Source: Catalinimonas alkaloidigena (GTDB lineage: Bacteria; Bacteroidota; Bacteroidia; Cytophagales; Flexibacteraceae). From it: DNA of 64,000 nt. Under the pieces are notes generated by a model that did not search any database, was not told the DNA's origin, and worked only from the letters and a program-made list of their open reading frames with translations. This document shows, in pieces, positions 15,650-28,768 of the stretch. The stretch is taken from NCBI RefSeq assembly GCF_900100765.1, contig NZ_FNFO01000012.1, positions 1 through 64,000 of the forward strand, written 5' to 3'. The stretch's first letter is position 1; each line of letters begins with the position of its first letter. A program made the position numbers and the translations under genes.

Positions 15650-18283
15650 CTACGCTCCAACAGTCACCGAATCGGTCGTACGCGACACGCGCGTGAGCAC
15701 ACTGGGCACCCGCAACAGGTCGAAATCCTGATCATAAATCAGGTATTTCGTTTTCCAGACCGGCTGAAACTTGTCTTTAAAATGCCGCAGCCCGTGAAAA
15801 CCTTCGAATCGCGGCAGGTGCTCGTACGCAAAACGCAAGGTTCGCCCCGGCAATCCTTCTGCCGTTTCCAGGCCGGCCAGCGGGGCCAGTCCCAGGTTGC
15901 ATTGCCGAACGCCCTTTTCCTTCAGGTAAAGAAAGAGGTGAACCAGGAGAAAATCGAGCGCGCCGTTGGGCGCATCGTCGGTACGTCTGATTAAATCGTA
16001 CGTCGCCTCGCCAAAGGCACGATCGGGAATGAGATTCAGAAACGCGACAATCTTCTGTTCGGCATTTTCGACAGCCAGCACGGTGCAAACACGCAGTTTG
16101 CCCTCATCGAACCATCCGTCGGTAAAGCCTACTTCTTGTCGTGCGTTGCTGCGGAGCCATTCGTCCGAGACTTGCCGCAGGCGTTGTAACGTTCCGCCCG
16201 CAAGTGGTGGCGGATACACACGCAACGTATACCCTTCTTTTTCGACCTTCTTCAGCGCATTGCGCAGCGACTTCATCGCTCCGCCCTCTAGAGTAAACTG
16301 TGTCAGGTCTACCACCGCCTCTTGTCCGATGGGCAGGGCCCGCTTTCGTAACGCTTCGTAAACGGGCAGGTCTTCTTCATTAACCCGGTAGTAAAACGAA
16401 GCCTGCCCCTGTTCCCGACACCATTGGTCGAACTCTTCCACGGCCGCGCGGAGCGACTTAGTCGGCGCGACGACCGGGTTTTCCAGCACCACCGCGTAGT
16501 GATGAGCCACCCGATACGCCACCAGCGCCTGCGCATCTTCCGAAAACCAGTAATTTTTGTCGAGGTATGTCTTGAAGTAGTCCAGAGACGCGTGGCCATA
16601 GGTTTCCACAAAGCGCTCTGCCCGCTGCTGCTCATCCGAGTCATCCGGGGGGGATCCTGCCCACGGACGCCACAGGTGGTAACTGACGAAGAGGACCACC
16701 GCCGCGCCGCCCACGTACAGGGAAGTCAGAAATGTGGCCGCAAACGACGTTCGGGGGGTCAGTCCGCTGCTGTCGAACAGAAAGAAAAGCCGGAAAGTAG
16801 CGGCGATGGCCTGTTGCCAGGTAAAGGCGATGCCGAAATGACGGGCATCCATCCAGTAAAAGCCCAAAACCCCGTAGATCAGGACGGCTACGAGCGCCCC
16901 TACAAAGGTAGCCAATCCCAGACGAGTCGACCGACGGCTCGCCCGCAGCCGATAGGCCGAACGCGCCACACCCAATGTTATCAGCGAAAGCCCGGCTAAT
17001 GTGGCCTCCTCCCAGTCGATGCCCTTCAGCAAGTGCCCCACCAGCGAAAGCGACGTCAGCAGCACCGCCGTAATCCACGCCCGGCGCGTCCCGACCAGCA
17101 GATAAGCCGAGAGCACCATCAGCCAGAGGCCACTTACCAGTACCAACCCTTTCGACGTATGAATCACGCTCGGCAGAACCCACTGCGTGAGGAGATGCAG
17201 CCGCGTAGCCAACGCAGGTGTGGCCGCCGAAACCACGTTGATTACGCCCAATGTCAGCATCACCAACGCAGGCCACACACGCACCAGCAAATGGTCGCGG
17301 CGCGCCACAAAGCTGAAAACACCGGCCAGCAGCGGCAGCCAGAATTCCAGCAACCGAAACAGCAACGTCACCGAAACCGCTTCGGCCGTCGACAGGCCAT
17401 ATTGGGTGAACAGATACGTCATGGAAACTTCGATGGCTCCCAACCCGCGTAAAAAAGGCGAGGCGATCAACAGCATCACCATCACCACGTATCCAAGTAC
17501 AGCCGCCGCAAACGGCAGGGCTAAGCCCAGCGCATGGGCCGCTACGTAGACATGGGCCATGCCGATGCCCTCGATTAACACCGACATGCCGAGCGCAGCC
17601 AGAAACGCAGACGCACCAATCTGCTGCGCCCGCAACTCGTCGAATGCCACAGTGAGCGACGGGCGCAACTGCACCAACCACTGGTACACCCGGCCCTGCT
17701 GCCAGAGGGAGTAAAGCCCCCCACCCAACCCGACTGTCAGAGATACCAGAAACGCAAAGGCCGCGATCTCCGTCACGTTGAGTTCGCCCTGCCACAGCGT
17801 CCAGCCCAAGGCGGGCACCGCCACCACCACCACCGACACCAGCCCGCACAGACCATAAAGCGAAGAAGCAACGTGAATTTGCGTGCGGGTGACGCCTTCG
17901 CGTTTCAGCGGTTGGGTAAAAAACGCAAGCGACGCAAACCCACCCGCCGGCAAAAAGACACTTAACAAGTTGCGCTTCAGAAAAACGACCAGCGACGCCC
18001 CCACCGAGACGCGCCCCCCCAAGGCCCGAAAACTGAAGACATACATCAACGCCTGCAATAGTAGGTAGCCACCCGTGAGGAGTAAACCGACCGCGATCCA
18101 GCCGGCATCTGCGTGGCGTAGCAACGTACGCGTCTGACCGACTTCGTGCCACTCGCTGTGTATGAAAAAGAGGGCAAAAACCAGCCCCACCAAGGCCAGC
18201 AGGATTTGCCCGACGCGGCCACTTACCCGGACGGGAGGCAGCTTTTCTGTAACGCGTTGCACCAGTTGAATAGCGGTAGCCAT
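15650..18283 (-). CDS. mprF: Bifunctional phosphatidylglycerol lysyltransferase/flippase
   Basis: An 877-residue membrane enzyme of the MprF family. The N-terminal part (about 1-330) is the multi-helix flippase domain, more membrane helices follow to about residue 545, and the C-terminal part (about 550-877) is the cytoplasmic DUF2156 aminoacyltransferase domain with two GNAT-like folds (segments such as NALKKVEKEGY and NLGLAPLAGLE). Full-length MprF uses aminoacyl-tRNA to aminoacylate phosphatidylglycerol and flips the product outward, lowering surface charge and sensitivity to cationic peptides. The amino acid used (Lys or Ala) cannot be told from sequence. The DUF998 gene follows after a single base. 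MprF is known mostly from Gram-positives and Proteobacteria. Confidence 0.87.
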   Translation of the reverse strand: MATAIQLVQRVTEKLPPVRVSGRVGQILLALVGLVFALFFIHSEWHEVGQTRTLLRHADAGWIAVGLLLTGGYLLLQALMYVFSFRALGGRVSVGASLVVFLKRNLLSVFLPAGGFASLAFFTQPLKREGVTRTQIHVASSLYGLCGLVSVVVVAVPALGWTLWQGELNVTEIAAFAFLVSLTVGLGGGLYSLWQQGRVYQWLVQLRPSLTVAFDELRAQQIGASAFLAALGMSVLIEGIGMAHVYVAAHALGLALPFAAAVLGYVVMVMLLIASPFLRGLGAIEVSMTYLFTQYGLSTAEAVSVTLLFRLLEFWLPLLAGVFSFVARRDHLLVRVWPALVMLTLGVINVVSAATPALATRLHLLTQWVLPSVIHTSKGLVLVSGLWLMVLSAYLLVGTRRAWITAVLLTSLSLVGHLLKGIDWEEATLAGLSLITLGVARSAYRLRASRRSTRLGLATFVGALVAVLIYGVLGFYWMDARHFGIAFTWQQAIAATFRLFFLFDSSGLTPRTSFAATFLTSLYVGGAAVVLFVSYHLWRPWAGSPPDDSDEQQRAERFVETYGHASLDYFKTYLDKNYWFSEDAQALVAYRVAHHYAVVLENPVVAPTKSLRAAVEEFDQWCREQGQASFYYRVNEEDLPVYEALRKRALPIGQEAVVDLTQFTLEGGAMKSLRNALKKVEKEGYTLRVYPPPLAGGTLQRLRQVSDEWLRSNARQEVGFTDGWFDEGKLRVCTVLAVENAEQKIVAFLNLIPDRAFGEATYDLIRRTDDAPNGALDFLLVHLFLYLKEKGVRQCNLGLAPLAGLETAEGLPGRTLRFAYEHLPRFEGFHGLRHFKDKFQPVWKTKYLIYDQDFDLLRVPSVLTRVSRTTDSVTVGA

Positions 18284-19403: not shown

Positions 19404-22400
19404 ATGAACATCCGACACGCAGCCGTGGTAGCGGGCCTGCTGCTGAGCCTGCCGAACGACGGTTTCGGACAACGTACGTTAGGAGAAACGAGCGATTACG
19501 CGCAGTTTCAGAATGCGCTTGATCTGCTGGAAAAAGAAAAATACGGGGCGGCACGCAACGCGTTCCAGCAATACCTCGACCTGAAACGCAACGACCTGCA
19601 GTCGGTCGAAGCGGAGTATTACCTGGCGATGGCGGCGATGAACCTCTACCATGCCGACGCCGAGAGCAAATTTGCCTCGTTCATCGAGAAGTACCCCAAC
19701 CACCCCAAGGCGCAACTGGCGTATTACGAGCTCGGCAACTTCTACTACGACCAGCGGAAGTACAACAAAGCCGTGGAGTATTACGAGAAAGCCTCGCAGG
19801 CCAACCTGTCGGAGAATCAGCGATACGAAGCGCTGTTCCGGCTGGGCTACGCGCATTTTGCGCAGAAAAACTTTACGGAGGCAGGTAAGGCCTTCGATCA
19901 GGTCAAAAACACGAAGTACGAAAAAGCGCCGGCGGCCAGCTACTACAGCGGCTACGTACACCTGCAGGCCGGCAACTACGATCAGGCGTTACAAGACCTG
20001 CGCAAGGCCGAAAGCGACGGCGAATACCAGGCACTGGTACCCGCCATGATCACCCACATTTACTACCAGCAGCAACAGTACGACAAGGTGATCGACTACG
20101 GCGAAGCCGCCCTGAAACGTGGCCGCATCAACGACGCCGACGCCGTAGCCCTACTGGTGGCCGAGGCCTACTACCGCAAGGGAGACTACGCCGCCGCGGC
20201 TTCCCGGTTCAACGACTACGCCAAGGAAAACCGCTCGATCGACGCGGCCGTGCGGTACCGCATCGGGTACAGCAACTTCATGACGGGCAACAACGACGAG
20301 GCCATTGCCCAATTCAAAACCCTGGCCGCCAAAGACGATACGCTCGCGCAAAACGCCGCCTATCACCTGGGCATCGCGTACCTGAAAACGGACAACAAGC
20401 AGTTTGCCATGACGGCCTTCGACCAGGCCCGCCGTGCTTCGTACGACGATCAGGTGCGGGCCAACGCGCTGTTCAACTACGGCAAAGTGAGCTACGACCT
20501 GGGACGTTATGCCGACGCCATCGCGGCCTTTCAGGAGTTTGTCAAACAGTATCCTAAAAATGCGTCGCTTTCGGAGGCGAACGATCTGCTGAGCGAATCG
20601 TACCTGAACACCGACAACTACGAAGAGGCCATCGCCCACATCGAGCGGACCGCGCAACCCTCGCCCCGCCTGCGCAAAGCCTACCAGCAGGTGACCTTTT
20701 ACCGGGGGACGCAGCTGTTCAACGACAAGAAATTCCTTCCGGCCATCGACATGTTCGAGAAGTCGCTGCGTTTTCCAGTCGACCAGAACCTGACGATGGG
20801 CGCGCACTACTGGACCGGTGAAACGTGGTCGATCGGGAAACAGTGGGACAAAGCCATCAACAGCTACGCCGCCGTATTTTCCGACTCCCGCTCCGAGCAT
20901 TACCTGCCCGCCCGTTACGGCATCGGCTACGCCTATTACAATACGAAAGAATACGCCAAGGCCCTGCCCCACTTCCGGGCCTACGTTGAAGCAGGGAAAG
21001 CGCAAACGCACTACGACGACGCCCTAGTCCGCCTCGCCGACTGTTATTACACCACCAAGAACTACGCTCAGGCCATCAGCACCTACGATCAGGCCGCCGA
21101 GGCCGATGCGTCCGTGCGCGACTACGTTCTGTACCAGAAAGGCATTGTTTACGACCTGATGGGCCAGTCGAACAAGGCGCAGGCCAGTTTCGAGACGCTT
21201 ACCGAGCAGTTTCCGCGTTCGCGTTACCTGGACGACGCACAGTTTCAGAAGGCGCAACTGGCGTTTGAACAGGGATCGTACGCGGCGGCCATCAACGGTT
21301 TCACGACGCTGATCCAGAAAAACAGCAACAGCACGCTGGTGCCGTTCGCGTACCTGCGGCGGGCCATTTCGTACAGCAACCTGCAAAAGCACGAGCAGGC
21401 GATCAACGATTACAAAAAAATTCTGGATGCCTACCCCAAGCACGAAACGGCCAACGATGCGCTGCTGGGATTGCAGGAAAACCTGAATGCCGTGAACCGG
21501 GGGCAGGAATTTACCGCCTACCTGAACCGCTACAAGCAGGCCAATCCGCAAAGCACCGCGCTGGAAAGCGTCGAGTTTGAGTCGGCCAAGTCGCTGTACT
21601 TGGGGCAGAATTACATGGAAGCCATCCAACGGCTGCAGGAGTACATGAAGAACTACCCGAACAGTGCCAACCTGCCCGACGCACGCTACTACCTGGCGGA
21701 ATCGTACTACCGGGCGGGCGACAATAAACAGGCGCTGCGCTTCCATCAGGACGTGATCCGCGAAAACCGGAGCACGTTTACCAGCCGTTCGCTGGAACGG
21801 GTGGCCGAACTCACCTTCAACGCCGGCAATTACCCGGGGGCGGCCTCGTACTACCGTCAGCTTCTGGCCAACGCCAGCAACCGCCGCCAGGAGTCGGGCG
21901 CGCTGGTCGGCTTGCTCGAAAGCTACTACCGCCTGCAAAAGTGGGATTCGGTCGACTACTTCTCCGGGCAGATCATGCAGGGCAACAACGCGGGCATCGA
22001 CGCGCAGAACAAAGCGCTGCTGTACGCCGGAAAGTCGGCGTATGCGCAGAAAAAGCTCGACGACGCCGTCGACTACTTCCTGCAGACCCTCAACTCGGCC
22101 AAGGACGAAAACGGTGCCGAAGCACAGTACCTGATGGCCCGGATTTTCTTCGAACAGGGCAAATACGAGCAGTCGCTGGAGACGCTCTACGACCTGAACA
22201 AGAAGTTTTCGCAGTACACGCAGTGGCTCGACCGTGGCTTCCTGCTCATTGCGGATAACTTCATTGCGACTGACGAACTCTACCAGGCACGCGCCACGCT
22301 GGAGTCGATCGCCGAAAACTCGCCGAACCCGGAAACGAAGAAGGCGGCGCAGGCCAAACTTCTGGTCGTGAAACAGAAAGAACAGGAGAAACAGGCCACT

Positions 22401-22433
22401 CCTGCCGAAGAAGACACCACCTTTAGCAACTAA
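19404..22433 (+). CDS. Large exported tetratricopeptide-repeat protein
   Basis: A 1009-residue protein: signal peptide 1-22 (ending FGQ), then near-continuous TPR and YbgF/TolA-binding-type repeats up to about residue 990. Typical units are AYYELGNFYYDQRKYNKAVEYYEKA and SYYRAGDNKQALRFHQDV. It is probably a periplasmic or outer-membrane-attached scaffold. It opens a tightly spaced operon (gaps of 35, 6, 2, 42, 52 and 0 bases) encoding a beta-barrel protein, an HU/SPOR protein and an ExbB-ExbD-TonB-like trio. By analogy with YbgF (CpoB), which couples Tol to peptidoglycan synthesis in Proteobacteria, it may play such a part; this is inference from repeats and context only. Confidence 0.82.
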   Translation: MNIRHAAVVAGLLLSLPNDGFGQRTLGETSDYAQFQNALDLLEKEKYGAARNAFQQYLDLKRNDLQSVEAEYYLAMAAMNLYHADAESKFASFIEKYPNHPKAQLAYYELGNFYYDQRKYNKAVEYYEKASQANLSENQRYEALFRLGYAHFAQKNFTEAGKAFDQVKNTKYEKAPAASYYSGYVHLQAGNYDQALQDLRKAESDGEYQALVPAMITHIYYQQQQYDKVIDYGEAALKRGRINDADAVALLVAEAYYRKGDYAAAASRFNDYAKENRSIDAAVRYRIGYSNFMTGNNDEAIAQFKTLAAKDDTLAQNAAYHLGIAYLKTDNKQFAMTAFDQARRASYDDQVRANALFNYGKVSYDLGRYADAIAAFQEFVKQYPKNASLSEANDLLSESYLNTDNYEEAIAHIERTAQPSPRLRKAYQQVTFYRGTQLFNDKKFLPAIDMFEKSLRFPVDQNLTMGAHYWTGETWSIGKQWDKAINSYAAVFSDSRSEHYLPARYGIGYAYYNTKEYAKALPHFRAYVEAGKAQTHYDDALVRLADCYYTTKNYAQAISTYDQAAEADASVRDYVLYQKGIVYDLMGQSNKAQASFETLTEQFPRSRYLDDAQFQKAQLAFEQGSYAAAINGFTTLIQKNSNSTLVPFAYLRRAISYSNLQKHEQAINDYKKILDAYPKHETANDALLGLQENLNAVNRGQEFTAYLNRYKQANPQSTALESVEFESAKSLYLGQNYMEAIQRLQEYMKNYPNSANLPDARYYLAESYYRAGDNKQALRFHQDVIRENRSTFTSRSLERVAELTFNAGNYPGAASYYRQLLANASNRRQESGALVGLLESYYRLQKWDSVDYFSGQIMQGNNAGIDAQNKALLYAGKSAYAQKKLDDAVDYFLQTLNSAKDENGAEAQYLMARIFFEQGKYEQSLETLYDLNKKFSQYTQWLDRGFLLIADNFIATDELYQARATLESIAENSPNPETKKAAQAKLLVVKQKEQEKQATPAEEDTTFSN

Positions 22434-22468
22434 CCGGGAGATTCCCGAACCAAAGTACCCCATTTTCT

Positions 22469-24202
22469 ATGAGGCTAACCCACTTGCTCCGTCTCTCCTC
22501 TCCTTTCCATCACCGCGCCGTTGCGCCGGTTTCGGCACGGCCCTGGCTGTATGCCGCGGTATTCACCGGTTTGTTGAGCACCCAGGCGTTTGCACAAACG
22601 CGCCCGAACGAACCGTTTGGAGAAGGAGAAGTCGAAGAGGCAGAATTTGAGATTGTGCAGAGTCGGGAAAACGAGCTGCCGCCGGCCAACCGCCGTTTTC
22701 AGAAGGTACCGGAAACGACCCGCCCCGTCGAGAACAAGGTGCAGGACTATCAGTTTTCGACGTTCCGCATCTCCAATCTGCCCAACCTGGAGCCACGCCT
22801 GCGCGTAAAAACGCTGCCCAAAGAGCCACTTAACAAGCTGTACGGCAACTACATCAAGGTAGGCGTCGGCAACTACGCCACTACCTACGCCGAAGGCTTC
22901 TTCAACAGCAAGCGAACGGAAAATTACCAGTACGGTGCCCACATCCGGCACTTGGCGTCGGCACGCGGCCCGGTCAATAAGTCGTATTCTGGCTCGGGCG
23001 AAAACATGGTGAAGCTGTACGGCAACATGTTCGGTAAGAAGGCGACCCTGGGCGGCACCTTCGGCTACACGCGCGAGCGGTACAACTTCTACGGATTTGC
23101 CCCGGAGGCCGAACTGCCCGACGACTCGGTCAAGCAGGTGTTCAATACGGTGGAAGTCGGCGTGAACCTGAAAAACAACGACACCGACGCCGCGCTCGAC
23201 TACCAGGCGGAAGTCCGGTTCGGACGCATCGCCGATTTTCTGGCCGCCCGCGAATCGGAGCTAAACGTCGACCTCAAAACCACATACGATCTGCAAAGCG
23301 GATCGACCATTCTGGTCGATGTCGAAACGTCGTTCACCCAACGCCAGGACGAGGCAACGGAGCAGAACCGGAACTGGGTGATGGTACGCCCGGCCTACCG
23401 GTATTTCAACAACGGATTTCTGATTACGCTGGGGGCTAATATCGGGTACGAGAACGACACCATTGGCGACTCGGACCTGCACCTCTACCCGCGGGCCAAC
23501 ATAGAGTACGCGCTGCTGCCCGAGAAACTCACCGCTTTCGCCGGCCTGAACGGCGAACTGGAAAAAACCACCTTGCGTACGGTCGTCGCCGAAAATCCGT
23601 TTCTGGCCCCCAATGTAGAGTTGCGTCACGCCAACAAGCGGTTCGACGTGTACGGCGGTATCCGCGGCCAAGTGGTTTCACGATTGGCGTACCAGGTACA
23701 GGCCAGTTTCCGGAACTACAAAAACTACCACTACTATCTGAACAGCCCGAGCGATACGGCCAAATTCAACCTCGTATACGACGGCGATGGCGGCACCACG
23801 CTGTTCAACCTCAGCACCCAACTGACCTACGAACCGCTCCCCAAACTGCAACTCGGCTGGAAGGCCGATGCCTACGCGTACAGCCCCGGCGAGCTGGAAG
23901 AACCCTGGCATCGCCCGGCTTTTACGACCGGTGTAACCGTTCGTTACAATGTAATGGACAAAGTATTGCTGAGCACCGATGTTTTCTACAATAGCGCTAT
24001 ATTTGCTCGAAATCCCACGACCGACGCGATTGTGAAACTGGATGGGATGCTGGATTGGGACGCACGTGCAGAGTACCTGCTGTCGGAGCGGGCATCGATT
24101 TTTCTCTCGCTCGACAACCTGATCAACCAGCAAAACCAGCGTTTTCTGTACTACCCCACCCGCGGGCGGATGATTATGTTCGGTGGAACCTACTCCTTCT
24201 AA
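22469..24202 (+). CDS. Outer-membrane beta-barrel protein, TonB-receptor-like without plug
   Basis: A 577-residue protein with a long N-terminal signal region (cleavage probably after TQAFAQ near residue 45), a short acidic linker, and then amphipathic beta-strand repeats to a C-terminal Phe (GGTYSF), as in outer-membrane barrels. Segments such as YLLSERASIFLSLDNLINQ resemble the last strands of TonB-dependent receptors, but no plug domain or CarboxypepD domain is present, so it is probably not a transporter of the standard kind. It sits between the giant TPR gene and the HU/SPOR gene in the operon, so it may be the outer-membrane element of the same assembly. Specific function unknown. Confidence 0.78.
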   Translation: MRLTHLLRLSSPFHHRAVAPVSARPWLYAAVFTGLLSTQAFAQTRPNEPFGEGEVEEAEFEIVQSRENELPPANRRFQKVPETTRPVENKVQDYQFSTFRISNLPNLEPRLRVKTLPKEPLNKLYGNYIKVGVGNYATTYAEGFFNSKRTENYQYGAHIRHLASARGPVNKSYSGSGENMVKLYGNMFGKKATLGGTFGYTRERYNFYGFAPEAELPDDSVKQVFNTVEVGVNLKNNDTDAALDYQAEVRFGRIADFLAARESELNVDLKTTYDLQSGSTILVDVETSFTQRQDEATEQNRNWVMVRPAYRYFNNGFLITLGANIGYENDTIGDSDLHLYPRANIEYALLPEKLTAFAGLNGELEKTTLRTVVAENPFLAPNVELRHANKRFDVYGGIRGQVVSRLAYQVQASFRNYKNYHYYLNSPSDTAKFNLVYDGDGGTTLFNLSTQLTYEPLPKLQLGWKADAYAYSPGELEEPWHRPAFTTGVTVRYNVMDKVLLSTDVFYNSAIFARNPTTDAIVKLDGMLDWDARAEYLLSERASIFLSLDNLINQQNQRFLYYPTRGRMIMFGGTYSF

Positions 24203-24208
24203 AAACCT

Positions 24209-25324
24209 ATGGAGCAATACATTAAAGAGCTTTTATTTCAACACGACTGCGTCATCATTCCCGAGTTAGGGGGATTCATCACCAGCTACCAGTCGGCTGA
24301 AGTACATCCGGTGCGCCATACGTTCGTCCCTGCCACGAAGAAAATCGCCTTCAACGAAAAGTTGAAGCACAACGACGGTGTGCTGATCAGTTCCGTCGCC
24401 AACCACGAACGCATCTCGATCGAAGATGCCACCCGGCGCGTGCGTGAGTTTGTGTATGATATTCGCCAGCAAATCCGCGAAAACAACCGATTTATGCTTC
24501 CGCAGATCGGAACTTTCTCGATCAATCAGGAGTACAACCTGCAGTTCGAGCCGGAGAACAAGGTCAACTACAACGAAGGCAGCTTCGGCCTGCCGGAACT
24601 CTTCTTTAAGCCCATTCTGCGCGAACGCGAAGGTCAGCGCCTGGTACAACCCAAATCGCGGAAACCGGTTCCTGCCCCGGAGCGCCGCGTCAGCCGACTG
24701 CCCGTCTGGGTATATGCCCTGGTTCCGCTGCTGTTGATCGGGGTCGTCACCGCCTATTTCGTAGTGCTTCGTCAGGACAACGGCGCCAGCCTGGGTAACA
24801 CCAACCCCTTCGCGCTATTCGACGAGAGGGCCACAGCACCAGCGCCCCAAGAGGAGGGCATGGCAGCCCTGCCCCAAGAGCCCCCTCAGGAAGAAACGAC
24901 GGTTGCCGCTTCGGACGAGGACTTCGCAACCGAAACAACACCTGCGGTTACCGACGAGGCTGTAGCGACGGAGTTCGAGGCCCCGGCCGAAACCGAAAGC
25001 GCGCCGGTTACCGCTGCTCCGAAAGAAACTACCCCGGCGGCGGCTCCCGTAGCCTCGGCACCCGCCGCGGAAAAAGCCACGCCGACGCCTACTCCTTCTA
25101 AATATTATCACCTGATTGCCGGTAGCTTCTCACGCGCCCGCAATGCGCAGAAACTGGTAGCACAGTTCGAGGGCGAAGGCTTAACGACCGAGATCCTTAA
25201 TCCAGATCAAAAAAATAACTTTAAAGTGTCTATCGCAAAATACGCTACTGTTGAAGAAGCCCGCACCGCCCGCGAGGAGATGCAGGCCCGTTTTAAACAA
25301 GATATCTGGATTCTGAAATACTAA
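24209..25324 (+). CDS. HU-CCDC81-type domain plus SPOR domain membrane protein
   Basis: A 371-residue single-span membrane protein. Residues 1-135 resemble the prokaryotic HU-CCDC81 domain pair, an HU/IHF-superfamily fold (motifs ELLFQHDCVIIPELGGFI and NRFMLPQIGTFSI). One transmembrane helix follows at about 164-187 (VWVYALVPLLLIGVVTAYFVVL), then an acidic Ala/Pro/Thr-rich linker (about 205-295) and a SPOR domain (about 297-371) that in other proteins binds denuded septal peptidoglycan. The N terminus is predicted cytoplasmic and the SPOR domain periplasmic. It ends 2 bases before the exbB-like gene. The combination suggests a link between nucleoid or cytoplasmic scaffold and the cell wall, a role proposed for this family from comparative genomics; biochemical proof is not known to me. 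Confidence 0.87.
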   Translation: MEQYIKELLFQHDCVIIPELGGFITSYQSAEVHPVRHTFVPATKKIAFNEKLKHNDGVLISSVANHERISIEDATRRVREFVYDIRQQIRENNRFMLPQIGTFSINQEYNLQFEPENKVNYNEGSFGLPELFFKPILREREGQRLVQPKSRKPVPAPERRVSRLPVWVYALVPLLLIGVVTAYFVVLRQDNGASLGNTNPFALFDERATAPAPQEEGMAALPQEPPQEETTVAASDEDFATETTPAVTDEAVATEFEAPAETESAPVTAAPKETTPAAAPVASAPAAEKATPTPTPSKYYHLIAGSFSRARNAQKLVAQFEGEGLTTEILNPDQKNNFKVSIAKYATVEEARTAREEMQARFKQDIWILKY

Positions 25325-25326
25325 AC

Positions 25327-26022
25327 ATGTTGCAACACCTTCTGCTGCAGATTAACACTGGCGGCGTAGACACCACAGGCGTAGCCGCTACGCCGACCGA
25401 CAATTCCGTACGACTGATTGACCTGCTGCTGGCCGGCGGGTTCGCCATGATTCCTCTGGCACTGCTGTCCATTGCGGCCATTTACATTTTTGTGGAGCGG
25501 TACCTGACGCTGCGCAAAGCCTCACGCGACCCCGATGCCTTTATGGACCGGGTGAAGATGATGGTGCAGAACGGCGACATCAATGGCGCGCGCGTGGTTT
25601 GCGCAGAGTTCGACTCACCCATCGCCCGTATGATCGAAAAAGGCGTGTCGCGCATCGGAAGTCCGCTGAAAAATATCGAGACGTCAATCGAAAACGTCGG
25701 CAAGATCGAGCTCTACCAGTTGGAGAAAAACCTGCCGACACTGGCCACCATTTCGGGAGCCGCGCCCATGATTGGCTTCTTCGGTACGGTTACGGGGATG
25801 ATCCAGGCATTTATCGCCATCGCCCAGGAAGAAGGCTCGGTCAGTCCTAAACTGCTCTCTTCCGGGATTTACGAAGCGATGATCACGACTGCCACGGGGC
25901 TGGCCATCGGCATTGTGGCTTACATCGGCTACAACTACCTCGTGGCGCAGGTCTCGAAGGTCATTCACAACATGGAGTACAACTCCGTGGAGTTCATCGA
26001 CCTATTGCAGGAAACGCACTAG
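25327..26022 (+). CDS. MotA/TolQ/ExbB family proton-channel protein
   Basis: A 231-residue inner-membrane protein with three hydrophobic segments (about 36-60, 136-160 and 180-205), the ExbB/TolQ pattern. The family signature is visible in LATISGAAPMIGFFGTVTGMIQAF and the last helix TTATGLAIGIVAYIGYNYL. With an ExbD/TolR partner it forms a proton-driven motor that energises a TonB- or TolA-like protein. Start ATG is 2 bases after the HU/SPOR gene and the ExbD-like gene follows after 42 bases. Whether it acts as Ton or Tol cannot be told from sequence, but the SPOR and TPR neighbours favour a Tol-like role in envelope constriction. Confidence 0.92.
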   Translation: MLQHLLLQINTGGVDTTGVAATPTDNSVRLIDLLLAGGFAMIPLALLSIAAIYIFVERYLTLRKASRDPDAFMDRVKMMVQNGDINGARVVCAEFDSPIARMIEKGVSRIGSPLKNIETSIENVGKIELYQLEKNLPTLATISGAAPMIGFFGTVTGMIQAFIAIAQEEGSVSPKLLSSGIYEAMITTATGLAIGIVAYIGYNYLVAQVSKVIHNMEYNSVEFIDLLQETH

Positions 26023-26064
26023 AGGCCCTTTCGGGATTTGCAGACTGCCTAACTCGCTCAAGAA

Positions 26065-26457
26065 ATGAATCTTAGTTCTCGCAATAAAGTAGATCCGGCG
26101 TTCAGCATGTCGTCCATGACCGACATCATCTTTCTGCTGCTGATCTTCTTCATGCTGACCGCCAGCTTCGTAACGCCTTCAGGGTTGCCCGTCAACCTGC
26201 CTTCGAGCAAGGCGTCGACCATCGTCATGCAGAAAGTCAGCGTGACGGTAACCGATGATCTGCAATACTTCGTCAACGACCGTCCGTCGTCGGCCGCCAC
26301 GTTGAAAAACGATTTGGCCGCAGAATTGCAGGGATCGGAAGAAGGCGTGGTGGTACTCCACATCGACAAAAACGTGCCGGTCGAAAATCTGGTGAACGTT
26401 GCCAGCGCCGCCACGGAACTGAAAGCGAAAGTGTCGATTGCTACCCGTCCCGAATAA
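26065..26457 (+). CDS. ExbD/TolR family biopolymer transport protein
   Basis: A 130-residue single-span protein. The N-terminal helix (about 18-38, IIFLLLIFFMLTASF) contains the conserved Asp20 of the proton path (MTDIIF), followed by PSGLPVNLP and a periplasmic domain of the ExbD/TolR fold. Length is normal for the family. It follows the ExbB-like gene after 42 bases and precedes the TonB-like gene by 52 bases, so the three form a complete energising unit. Confidence 0.92.
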   Translation: MNLSSRNKVDPAFSMSSMTDIIFLLLIFFMLTASFVTPSGLPVNLPSSKASTIVMQKVSVTVTDDLQYFVNDRPSSAATLKNDLAAELQGSEEGVVVLHIDKNVPVENLVNVASAATELKAKVSIATRPE

Positions 26458-26509
26458 AGCGTAAACTATTTCGGTGCCGAATGGCGTTGTACCGATAACC
26501 CGTTGAACT

Positions 26510-27475
26510 ATGGCTACTAACAAGGAAGAACAGAACAAGCGCACTGGACTGATCGTTTCGATCGGCCTGCACGCGGCGTTTCTGCTGCTGTGTTTCTTCC
26601 TGTTGGCCTGGCAACCGCCCGATCCGCCCCTGCCCGAGTACGGCATCGAACTGAATTTTGGGCTGGATGCAGCGGGTAGTGGCGATGTGCAGAGCATGGC
26701 CCCCGCCGCCAATACCGATAACCAAGAAGATGCACGCCCCGAACCGCCTTCGGCCGGCGAGGAAGCGCCTTCGGAATCGGCTCCCGAGCCCGTTACGGAA
26801 ACAACGCCTGCGGAAGCTCCCGCTGCCGAGCCGATGACGGATCCCACGCCGGAACCGGTAGAGACGCCGGTAACAGCCCCGGCCGAAGAAAGCCCGGTGG
26901 TGGTGAAAGAGACGCCGAAACCCAAGCCCAAGCCACAACCCGAGGTCAAAGAAACTAAGCCAGCCGAAGAGCCGAAGCCCAAACCGGCTGAACCCAAGCC
27001 ACAACCCAAGCCCCGGGCACTGTACCCCGGTACCGAGGCCAGCAACACAAGCAATACATCAGGAGCCAACGGCAAAAGTGGTACCAGCGACCAAGCACAA
27101 GCCAACAACAACGGCGACCGCGCGGGAGCGACCGGCGATCAGGGCAGCCCGGAAGGAAAACCCGAAGCCAAAGCTCTGTACGGCACGGCTGGCGGGGGAA
27201 GCGGTGGCGCTTCGCTCAGCATGTCGGGCTGGACCTGGGACGGCTCCCCGAACTTCGATAACCTGCCGAAGGAAGAAGGACGCATTCGCTTCAAAATCAC
27301 CGTCAACGATCTGGGAGAAGTGGAAAACGTAGAGGCGGTCGAGAAGACCGTCAGCCCCTCGATCGTAACGGCCTACCGAAATGTAATCATGCGTCAGGCA
27401 TTACGTAAAACCGATAATTCACCCGCCGCCCCCCTGTCGACGGGTTACGTCACCATCGTGATTCGTTCCCGCTAA
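26510..27475 (+). CDS. TonB/TolA-like energy transducer
   Basis: A 321-residue protein with an N-terminal transmembrane helix (about 14-35, LIVSIGLHAAFLLLCFFLLAW), a long Pro/Glu/Lys-rich stalk (about 70-165, with repeated PKPKPQPE-like units), a low-complexity Ser/Asn/Gly stretch (about 175-235), and a small C-terminal domain (about 245-321) with a TonB-C-like pattern (GRIRFKITVNDLGEVENVEAVE). This layout is that of TonB or TolA, spanning the periplasm to touch the outer membrane. It is the fourth envelope gene in a row and is followed with no gap by folC, whose GTG start abuts its TAA stop. Partner at the outer membrane is unknown; the barrel protein encoded in the same operon is the obvious candidate. 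Confidence 0.86.
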   Translation: MATNKEEQNKRTGLIVSIGLHAAFLLLCFFLLAWQPPDPPLPEYGIELNFGLDAAGSGDVQSMAPAANTDNQEDARPEPPSAGEEAPSESAPEPVTETTPAEAPAAEPMTDPTPEPVETPVTAPAEESPVVVKETPKPKPKPQPEVKETKPAEEPKPKPAEPKPQPKPRALYPGTEASNTSNTSGANGKSGTSDQAQANNNGDRAGATGDQGSPEGKPEAKALYGTAGGGSGGASLSMSGWTWDGSPNFDNLPKEEGRIRFKITVNDLGEVENVEAVEKTVSPSIVTAYRNVIMRQALRKTDNSPAAPLSTGYVTIVIRSR

Positions 27476-28768
27476 GTGACTTACGAAGCCACGCTTGAGT
27501 ACCTGTACCAGACCCTCCCCATGTTTCAGCGGGTGGGCAATGCTGCCATTAAAAAAGGCCTGGACAACACGCTCGCCCTCTGCGAAGCACTAGGCAACCC
27601 TCACCATCAGTTTCGTGCCGTTCACATCGCGGGGACCAACGGCAAAGGGAGCACGTCTCATGCGCTTGCCTCGGTGTTGCAGGCCGCGGGCTATCGCACC
27701 GGTCTCTATACCTCCCCTCACCTGAAGAACTTCACTGAACGCATCCGAATCGACGGGCAGGAGATCGATCAGGCATTCATTGTCGAATTCGTGGCAACCC
27801 ACAAATCGCTGCTAGAGCGCATCCAACCTTCGTTTTTCGAGACGACCGTAGCGATGGCTTTCGCGGCGTTTGCGGCGCACCAGATTGAGGTCGCCGTCGT
27901 TGAAGTGGGGCTGGGCGGCCGCCTCGATTCCACCAACGTGCTTACGCCCGATCTGTCGGTCATCACCAACATCAGTTGGGACCACGCCGATCTTCTGGGC
28001 GACACATTACCCGCCATTGCGCGTGAAAAAGCGGGGATCATCAAGCCAGGCGTTCCCGTCGTTGTCAGCGAGTATCAGGACGAAGTGGCCGAGGTGTTTC
28101 GCGAAGAGGCAGGCCATCGGGGTGCACCCCTGGCCTTTGGCTCGGACGTGTACCACGTGACTCCACTAAGCCAGACGCTGGACGGTCAGACTTTCCGGGT
28201 AGAGAGCGGCGACGAAACGGTCTACGAATCCTTATTCCTCGATTTGCCGGGGCGCTACCAGCGCCAGAATTTGCCCGGCATTCTGCTAGCGTTGGAACTC
28301 TTGTGTGAGGAAGATTATCAAATTTCGGATGAAGCTATTCTGACCGGTCTAAGTCAGATTCGGGCGAGTACCGGGCTGAAAGGGCGCTGGCAGGTGCTGG
28401 CATCGTCTCCGCTGACGATCTGCGATGTCGGTCATAACGAAGGCGGTTTTCGGCAGATCGTCGCGCAGTTGCAAGCCCTGTCGTACGCGCAGTTGTACTG
28501 GGTATTGGGAGTGGTCAAAGAAAAAGATCTGACCAAAATTCTCCCTTTGCTGCCCCCTACAGCCTTTTACCTGTTCACACAACCTTCTGTGGCCCGCGCC
28601 CTGCCCGCCTCCGAACTGGCGCAAGCCGCCCAAGCCCACGGCCTGCGGGGCGAAACCGTGCCCGAAGTCAACGCGGCGCTGGCAAGGGCGCGCCAGCTCG
28701 CTTCGCCAAAGGATGTTATTTTTGTGGGCGGAAGCACCTTCGTCGTCGCCGATCTGGACGAGCTATAA
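27476..28768 (+). CDS. folC: Bifunctional folylpolyglutamate synthase / dihydrofolate synthase
   Basis: A 430-residue Mur-ligase-family enzyme that joins glutamate to dihydropteroate and to tetrahydrofolate. The ATP-binding loop GTNGKGST is at about 53-60, VEVGLGGRLDSTNV near 142-155 and NISWDHADLLG near 166-176 mark the Mur ligase core, and the C-terminal domain contains DVGHNEGG. The start is a GTG directly after the TAA of the TonB-like gene, so expression is probably by translational coupling. Folate synthesis has no obvious link with the envelope operon upstream; the arrangement may be simple operon accretion. Confidence 0.92.
   Translation: MTYEATLEYLYQTLPMFQRVGNAAIKKGLDNTLALCEALGNPHHQFRAVHIAGTNGKGSTSHALASVLQAAGYRTGLYTSPHLKNFTERIRIDGQEIDQAFIVEFVATHKSLLERIQPSFFETTVAMAFAAFAAHQIEVAVVEVGLGGRLDSTNVLTPDLSVITNISWDHADLLGDTLPAIAREKAGIIKPGVPVVVSEYQDEVAEVFREEAGHRGAPLAFGSDVYHVTPLSQTLDGQTFRVESGDETVYESLFLDLPGRYQRQNLPGILLALELLCEEDYQISDEAILTGLSQIRASTGLKGRWQVLASSPLTICDVGHNEGGFRQIVAQLQALSYAQLYWVLGVVKEKDLTKILPLLPPTAFYLFTQPSVARALPASELAQAAQAHGLRGETVPEVNAALARARQLASPKDVIFVGGSTFVVADLDEL

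Follow-up and report, generated by a model that had tools for sequence, protein, structure and literature searches.

The Tol-Pal system (TolQRAB-Pal-CpoB), the ExbB-ExbD-TonB motor with its TonB-dependent transporters, the PorE tether of the Bacteroidetes and the Agl-Glt machinery of Myxococcus xanthus are the described systems with which the locus reported here is best compared. The Bacteroidetes have been described as being without an identifiable tol-pal locus, and PorE has been proposed as an outer-membrane tether, with further systems expected (PMC12204202, 2025; this and the other papers are cited here for part of their text). PorE, viewed as a CpoB-TolB-Pal fusion, is a lipoprotein with tetratricopeptide repeat (TPR), TolB-like, carboxypeptidase-like and OmpA parts, and has no motor gene in it (PMC12204202). 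The Agl-Glt machinery combines a MotA/TolQ-type motor, TonB-like arms and a TonB-box protein, and it serves gliding in a different phylum (PMC9389320). The subject of this report is a six-gene operon of Catalinimonas alkaloidigena (assembly GCF_900100765.1, 7.1 Mb in 38 contigs), located within positions 1 to 64,000 of the forward strand of contig NZ_FNFO01000012.1; these 64,000 nucleotides, the whole stretch that was analysed, are referred to as the window. The operon encodes a TPR protein, an outer-membrane barrel, a SPOR-domain protein and a motor with its force transducer, and by comparison of its parts it appears to be an analogue of Tol-Pal rather than a member of that system.

The six open reading frames (ORFs) lie on the plus strand with gaps of 35, 6, 2, 42 and 52 bases, and the ORF coordinates agree in this with the initial annotation, which had been made from the DNA alone. 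Protein families and a structural model of the barrel likewise agree with its description of an envelope operon with its own Ton/Tol-type motor, a TPR protein, a SPOR protein and a plugless barrel. The features are as follows.

19404..22433, plus strand: periplasmic TPR protein, 1009 aa, with TPR repeats and an N-terminal signal-like segment, directly 5' of the barrel gene
22469..24202, plus strand: predicted plugless TonB-dependent-transporter-type beta-barrel, 577 aa, with a disordered N-terminus (from the model and profiles)
22628..22702, plus strand: conserved TonB-box-like motif EVEEAEFEIVQSRENELPPANRRFQ, residues 54-78 of the barrel protein (from conservation and ungapped matches)
24209..25324, plus strand: inner-membrane anchor, 371 aa, with two HU-CCDC81 domains, an SFGLPELFFKPIL motif, one transmembrane (TM) segment at about residue 168 and a periplasmic SPOR domain
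25327..26022, plus strand: ExbB/TolQ-family motor subunit, 231 aa (MotA_ExbB)
26065..26457, plus strand: ExbD/TolR-family motor subunit, 130 aa (ExbD), with an Asp in the TM segment (SSMTDIIFLLLIFF)
26510..27475, plus strand: TonB-type force transducer, 321 aa, with a TM segment carrying S-x3-H, a Pro-rich linker and a TonB-fold C-terminal domain (CTD) from about residue 235 on
27476..28768, plus strand: folC, gap 0 after the transducer gene, adjoining tonB in many relatives

The operon is like Tol-Pal in its proton-driven ExbB/TolQ-ExbD/TolR motor, single-pass transducer, TPR protein, outer-membrane partner and presumed link to division. It differs in that it contains neither TolB nor Pal, that the transducer CTD resembles TonB before TolA, that the outer-membrane partner is an integral barrel, and that peptidoglycan binding is of the SPOR and not the OmpA type. 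With ExbB-ExbD-TonB and a TonB-dependent transporter it shares the motor, transducer and barrel families and the N-terminal TonB-box-like motif, but its barrel has no plug, the operon adds TPR and SPOR proteins, and the genome holds a separate ExbB-ExbD-ExbD set. Like PorE, it is a proposed answer to the missing tol-pal locus of the Bacteroidetes (PMC12204202), and the two could act together. The parts of Agl-Glt are alike in type, and homology as a set is not claimed.

The six-gene cluster is real, and it is wider than the initial annotation knew. A profile of the operon's ExbB matched at least 425 loci; the best 80 of these, which we call the ExbB set, lean to relatives of the window, mostly Cytophagales, the top matches including records from Pontibacter, Cesiribacter and a strain of the Catalimonadaceae (Cytophagales, Bacteroidota). 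The complete six-gene order is found in 68 of these 80 loci (51 + 15 + 2). The barrel gene is present in 79, with a TPR gene no more than 1.2 kb upstream in 69 of the 79; downstream of it stand the anchor gene in all 79, ExbB in 79 (by selection), ExbD and TonB in 76 each, and folC in 52. Some of these loci end at contig edges.

A profile made from 17 barrels extends this picture across the phylum, matching 227 of 296 genomes (E 1e-6). In the window's class 72 of 73 sampled genomes carry the barrel family, all at 2e-27 or better; in other classes 54 of 223 genomes reach 1e-20 or better, and weaker matches there may be ordinary transporters. The source genome yields a single match, despite the 106 plug matches it contains. 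Gene order was surveyed around 79 barrels, 19 reached through HU matches and 60 chosen over many families from barrel matches, a selection that is not a random sample, with a low limit of 20 bits for anchor and TonB matches. Five loci (L044, L047, L049, L072 and L084) whose matches, of 701-711 aa, look like ordinary transporters were dropped from this survey and from the motif tests; L046, grouped with them, has no barrel match. Of the 79 survey loci, 68 have a TPR gene no more than 1.2 kb before the barrel; the anchor is found in 50, ExbB and ExbD in 38 each, TonB in 29 and folC in 15, the complete order being kept in 17. Outside the window's class, at least four of the genes are kept in 23 of the 28 survey loci: two are complete (L136 and L145, with weak TonB matches of 25 and 27 bits), ten are without a TonB match only, ten without TPR only and one without the anchor only, and five keep less. 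As the same order recurs in distant genomes, more than chance grouping is indicated, and the synteny, for which the initial annotation had named restriction to close relatives as the refuting outcome, reaches far beyond them into other classes. A profile of the operon's TonB likewise gave matches in 18 of 21 genomes, which represent eight families within the window's class; ExbB, ExbD and TonB stand in order on one strand in 11 of the 21 loci, and folC adjoins TonB in 11.

The genes are not everywhere together. In Flavobacteriaceae-like (f8) and Bacteroides-like (f7) genomes, family labels that are inferred, partly from gene content, the TPR-barrel pair is kept, except in L109, and the anchor stands elsewhere. 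The operon looks ancestral and was probably split later. Two loci outside the phylum by label, L207 (CALPQG020000038.1, labelled Bifidobacterium breve) and L205 (SKYL01000267.1, a Halorhodospira metagenome-assembled genome), carry Cytophagales-type operon genes and are probably mislabelled or contaminated bins. In the f7 loci L044, L046, L047, L049, L072 and L084 a transporter-like gene of 701-711 aa replaces the plugless barrel; the HU anchor gene follows it immediately or after one ORF, and precedes a 4HBT-cluster gene. The transporter-like gene of L044, the one scanned of the six, has a weak plug match.

The protein that the motor would pull on matches no Pfam family at E 0.01 and was identified by structure prediction and a profile search. 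An AlphaFold2 model built with 68 sequences has a mean predicted local distance difference test score of 83.5, is confident from about residue 124 behind a low-confidence N-terminus, and shows about 22 strands on visual reading. In a Foldseek search BtuB ranked first (E 5.1e-18), and VIA-align gave a Z score of 22.6 against FhuA (root-mean-square deviation 3.0, 426 residues aligned) and 22.4 against BtuB (3.5, 397 aligned); the 50 VIA-align rows listed are transporter barrels throughout, which excludes nothing. As the BtuB alignment begins at BtuB residue 135, it is the barrel that is matched, without the plug. The barrel profile, compared with Protein Data Bank (PDB) sequences, also found transporters, best in columns 423-532 of 555, which belong to the barrel part. 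On the model, then, the protein is a TonB-dependent-transporter barrel without a plug.

The low-confidence N-terminus of the model holds the motif of residues 54-78, with a conservation of 0.62, where the barrel averages 0.47 and the linker 0.38. In windows of 25 residues it has rank 7 of 553, on a par with the last strands; with windows of 15 residues the first strand scores above it. When a 22-column motif matrix from Cytophagales was slid without gaps along the N-termini of 78 survey barrels and compared with shuffles, 46 matched at p<0.05 and 32 at p<0.01; after removal of ten barrels from the same order the counts were 36 and 22 of 68, and the control, 69 TPR N-termini, gave 2 and 0. Among deep branches, the sequences matched are TonB-box-like and of the 'LPEFVITG' type, for example KIDLPEFLITGQETIDLP in L136. 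A stricter position-specific scoring matrix (PSSM) was made from 19 TonB boxes of the source genome's transporters, kept from 28 segments by a pattern that we set, most of the nine other extracted segments having been read on the wrong strand. At p<0.05 this stricter matrix picked out 20 of 153 barrels, and two control sets gave 2 of 138 and 5 of 93. Proteins shorter than 500 or longer than 680 aa (L083, L187, L195, L202, L205 and L216) were left out of the strict set, and L083 also of the ungapped test.

The motor subunits match their Pfam families above cut-off, ExbB at 1.9e-29 (MotA_ExbB, PF01618) and ExbD at 1.1e-26 (ExbD, PF02472). The NCBIfam scores for tolQ (100.7 bits, cut-off 221) and tolR (44.6, cut-off 127.3) lie below their cut-offs, and the motor is therefore assigned at superfamily level only. 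The transducer has no Pfam match of its own, and four of ten aligned family members match TonB_C at E up to 1, best 4.4e-5. Its TM motif reads SIGLH, and 73 of 108 family members have an S/T-x3-H pattern within their first 70 residues; for contact with the motor, an SHLS motif with its histidine has been called essential (PMC12204202). In the model the CTD spans about residues 235-318, with block means of 85 to 98. Foldseek placed TonB of Pseudomonas and E. coli first (best 6fip, E 7.8e-4, the only row below 0.001) and TolA at ranks 27 and 34, the two folds being related, and a profile of the transducer found TonB 6sly among PDB sequences at 5.5e-4. The modelled transducer thus ranks as TonB-type, nearer to TonB than to TolA, and of the ExbB-ExbD-TonB/TolA-like set announced in the initial annotation the motor stands, by its Pfam families. 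A second motor set, one ExbB and two ExbD genes on another contig (C1) of the source genome, suggests that general uptake need not depend on the operon's motor. A third and short MotA_ExbB match lies at G000:C10:143457-143699 (L228) in an open frame of about 140 aa, and the operon's ExbD profile found no ExbD in the 15 kb around it.

The inner-membrane anchor has two HU-CCDC81 domains (E 1.7e-23 and 8.5e-20) and a SPOR domain (1.2e-8, 35.6 bits, cut-off 21); the hydrophobic peak at residue 168 indicates one TM segment, with a cytoplasmic part before it and SPOR behind. The same domains make up the HU-CCDC81/SPOR proteins of Bacteroidota (PF18174, PF18175), which Burroughs et al. are said to have described in 2017; here they stand in an operon with a motor, and the HU part is optional in relatives. 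What is conserved in Cytophagales anchors is the FGLP motif, the TM segment and SPOR. In the ExbB set (n=80) the FGL motif begins within the first 40 residues in 55 anchors, at 40-119 in 4 and at 120-159 in 16, and was not found in 5; its position, together with the alignment, is a length proxy for the room left for HU domains. HU-CCDC81_bac_1 occurs in 64 of 296 phylum genomes and in 57 of 73 in the window's class. L087, L160 and, from outside the class, L136 and L142 have SPOR without an HU match, and HU without a SPOR match is seen in three f6 copies and one f7 copy, the longer f6 copy L075 lying outside the scan. The HU pair has a net charge of -4 over residues 1-130 in the window and of 0 in two Pontibacter copies. 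The DNA-binding element that the initial annotation had added to the machine is unsupported, though still conceivable, because HU is optional in relatives and the charge of the pair is -4, and an essential DNA tether was rejected, most ExbB-set relatives having no room for HU domains. Recurrent neighbours of the HU-SPOR gene in Flavobacteriaceae-like loci, L064 and L053 among them, are a dprA-cluster gene, present in 21 loci, and a gene of a 4HBT thioesterase cluster, present in 26 including f7; both were counted anywhere within the retrieved stretch and annotated from one representative each. A YbgC-like thioesterase beside the anchor was tried as a sign of Tol-Pal and rejected, the one representative scanned being YciA-like at 77 bits (cut-off 162).

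The TPR protein matches TIGR02795 (tol-pal YbgF) at 266 bits (cut-off 90) over seven stretches of its 1009-aa TPR array; as the match is spread over repeated TPR stretches it is not counted as identity with CpoB, the model of which (NF008068) scores 49.5 of 383 bits. Identity with PorW/SprE was rejected (93.5 bits, cut-off 250).

Taken together, the parts suggest a machine that pulls across the envelope, for which, by analogy with Tol-Pal, outer-membrane tethering and constriction at division is the most likely role, at about even odds of being right. Powered by the proton gradient, ExbB and ExbD would drive the TonB-type protein, whose CTD would bind the TonB-box-like N-terminal peptide of the barrel. 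With no plug there to be unfolded, the force would act on the barrel itself and would move or hold it, and the outer membrane with it, toward the peptidoglycan. The inner-membrane SPOR protein would place the complex at, or tie it to, septal peptidoglycan, and the TPR protein may be a periplasmic scaffold, perhaps closing the wide barrel. The motor and rod steps are proposed because of the named families; from the remaining features we infer that the motif binds the operon's own TonB, that the proteins form a complex, and that it is septal and acts in division. The fuller proposal, that the operon replaces Tol-Pal in Bacteroidota as an ancestral machine, in which a former nutrient transporter, now plugless, is an outer-membrane handle pulled by a dedicated ExbBD-TonB motor at the site of division under SPOR guidance, is plausible at somewhat less than even chances.

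A link to division is hinted at by the SPOR domain and by gene neighbours. In 8 of 10 TPR-less loci (f22, f24) the genes run FtsK, LolA-like, flippase-like, barrel, anchor, ExbB, ExbD, TonB, one representative of each neighbour having been annotated. Upstream of the TPR gene, 10 of 12 f8 loci and one f10 locus have a divergent FtsE-like gene, separated from it by another gene in one case. That no Tol-Pal is obvious in Bacteroidota, as the initial annotation assumed, is consistent with the absence of TolB_N from a profile search of the source genome, with its rarity elsewhere (19 of 296 phylum genomes, and in the window's class 1 of 73, a partial match of 29 bits) and with PMC12204202. Pfam found no OmpA-domain gene in the operon, hence no Pal; elsewhere in the source genome there are 22 OmpA matches, a count that does not cover the PorE architecture. 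The motor, TPR and SPOR parts bear out the set of parts that had been proposed, whereas the outer-membrane partner is a transporter-type barrel and not TolB-Pal. The Tol-Pal analogy is, on these comparisons, a good working hypothesis.

Several observations weigh against it. TolB cannot be called absent from the phylum, since Bacteroides ihuae, the control genome, gave a TolB_N match, and the probability given to a replacement of Tol-Pal was slightly lowered because of it. The window's copy of the N-terminal motif fails the strict TonB-box PSSM (p 0.72), and we take it for a TonB box that has diverged and is fitted to the operon's own TonB. The f4 clusters have neither ExbB nor ExbD, the three f6 anchor copies with HU and no SPOR match have no ExbB and ExbD adjacent, and 11 of the 79 survey loci, ten of them from two families, have no TPR gene next to the barrel. 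For the FtsE-like representative FtsE is the best model at 242 bits, below the cut-off of 265, and the FtsK and FtsE links may each go back to one ancestral event. A Cytophaga hutchinsonii mutant deleted for chu_0135, which is annotated as tolA and may or may not be the operon's transducer gene, grew like the wild type on filter paper and in PY6, and loss of a Pal-like gene (chu_0125) gave no division defect by scanning electron microscopy (PMC5891637).

Among other explanations, a housekeeping uptake or export channel, in which some common large substrate would pass the plugless barrel, with the TPR protein as gate and the dedicated Ton motor to open it, is unlikely and survives best. It would account for a transducer of the TonB and not the TolA type and for a barrel of the transporter type, but the plug domain, the part on which TonB acts in uptake, is the one that is missing; a SPOR protein shares the operon, and presence of the family in 72 of 73 class genomes argues for a core envelope task. 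An outer-membrane biogenesis machine, whose force would move lipid, lipoprotein or lipopolysaccharide cargo, is rather improbable: LolA-like and LPG_synthase_TM genes do stand between FtsK and the barrel in 8 loci, all of one lineage, but the FtsK, LolA-like and flippase-like trio is confined to these 8 of 64 clustered barrel loci, and there is no Pfam lipid-carrier family among the six proteins. That three modules (TPR-barrel; anchor; ExbB-ExbD-TonB-folC) are co-located and form no one machine has little probability. Flavobacteriaceae-like and Bacteroides-like genomes do have them apart, but they adjoin one another in the Cytophagales of the ExbB set and wholly or largely so in other classes (L136, L145), and the split therefore looks derived. 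The Glt machinery has TPR and barrel parts, and the TPR-barrel pair occurs also in f7 genomes (L105, L106, L119 and L120), apparently Bacteroides-like and presumably non-gliding. A gliding-type machine like Agl-Glt, with similar parts in the TonB-like GltG/GltJ and in GltF with its TonB box, is highly improbable, since in Bacteroidetes gliding is driven by GldLM (PMC9389320).

The remaining features of the locus concern its surroundings. Beyond folC, which is probably not part of the machine, trmB follows after 71 bases, and a promoter scan was uninformative, with 3 found against 4.1 expected. Two genes upstream of the operon, on the minus strand at 15650-18283 of the window, lies a divergent lysylphosphatidylglycerol synthase gene (TM and C-terminal parts); in another class (L123 and others) the gene immediately preceding the barrel is flippase-like, belongs to that Pfam family and has the TM part only.

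No publication on this operon was recognised in the literature searched, in which subscription papers and preprints are few. By word count, the main text of PMC12204202 contains no occurrence of SPOR, HU domain or TonB box, and PMC12611786 concerns BAM and mentions neither SPOR nor TPR. How the outer membrane is constricted and tethered in Bacteroidota without a recognisable Tol-Pal locus is an open question in print (PMC12204202). With a widely conserved operon that joins motor and transducer to a SPOR domain and a conserved peptide motif, this question becomes testable by ordinary depletion and localisation experiments. If the reading of the operon as a pulling machine is true, a transporter barrel would have been reused as a mechanical anchor.

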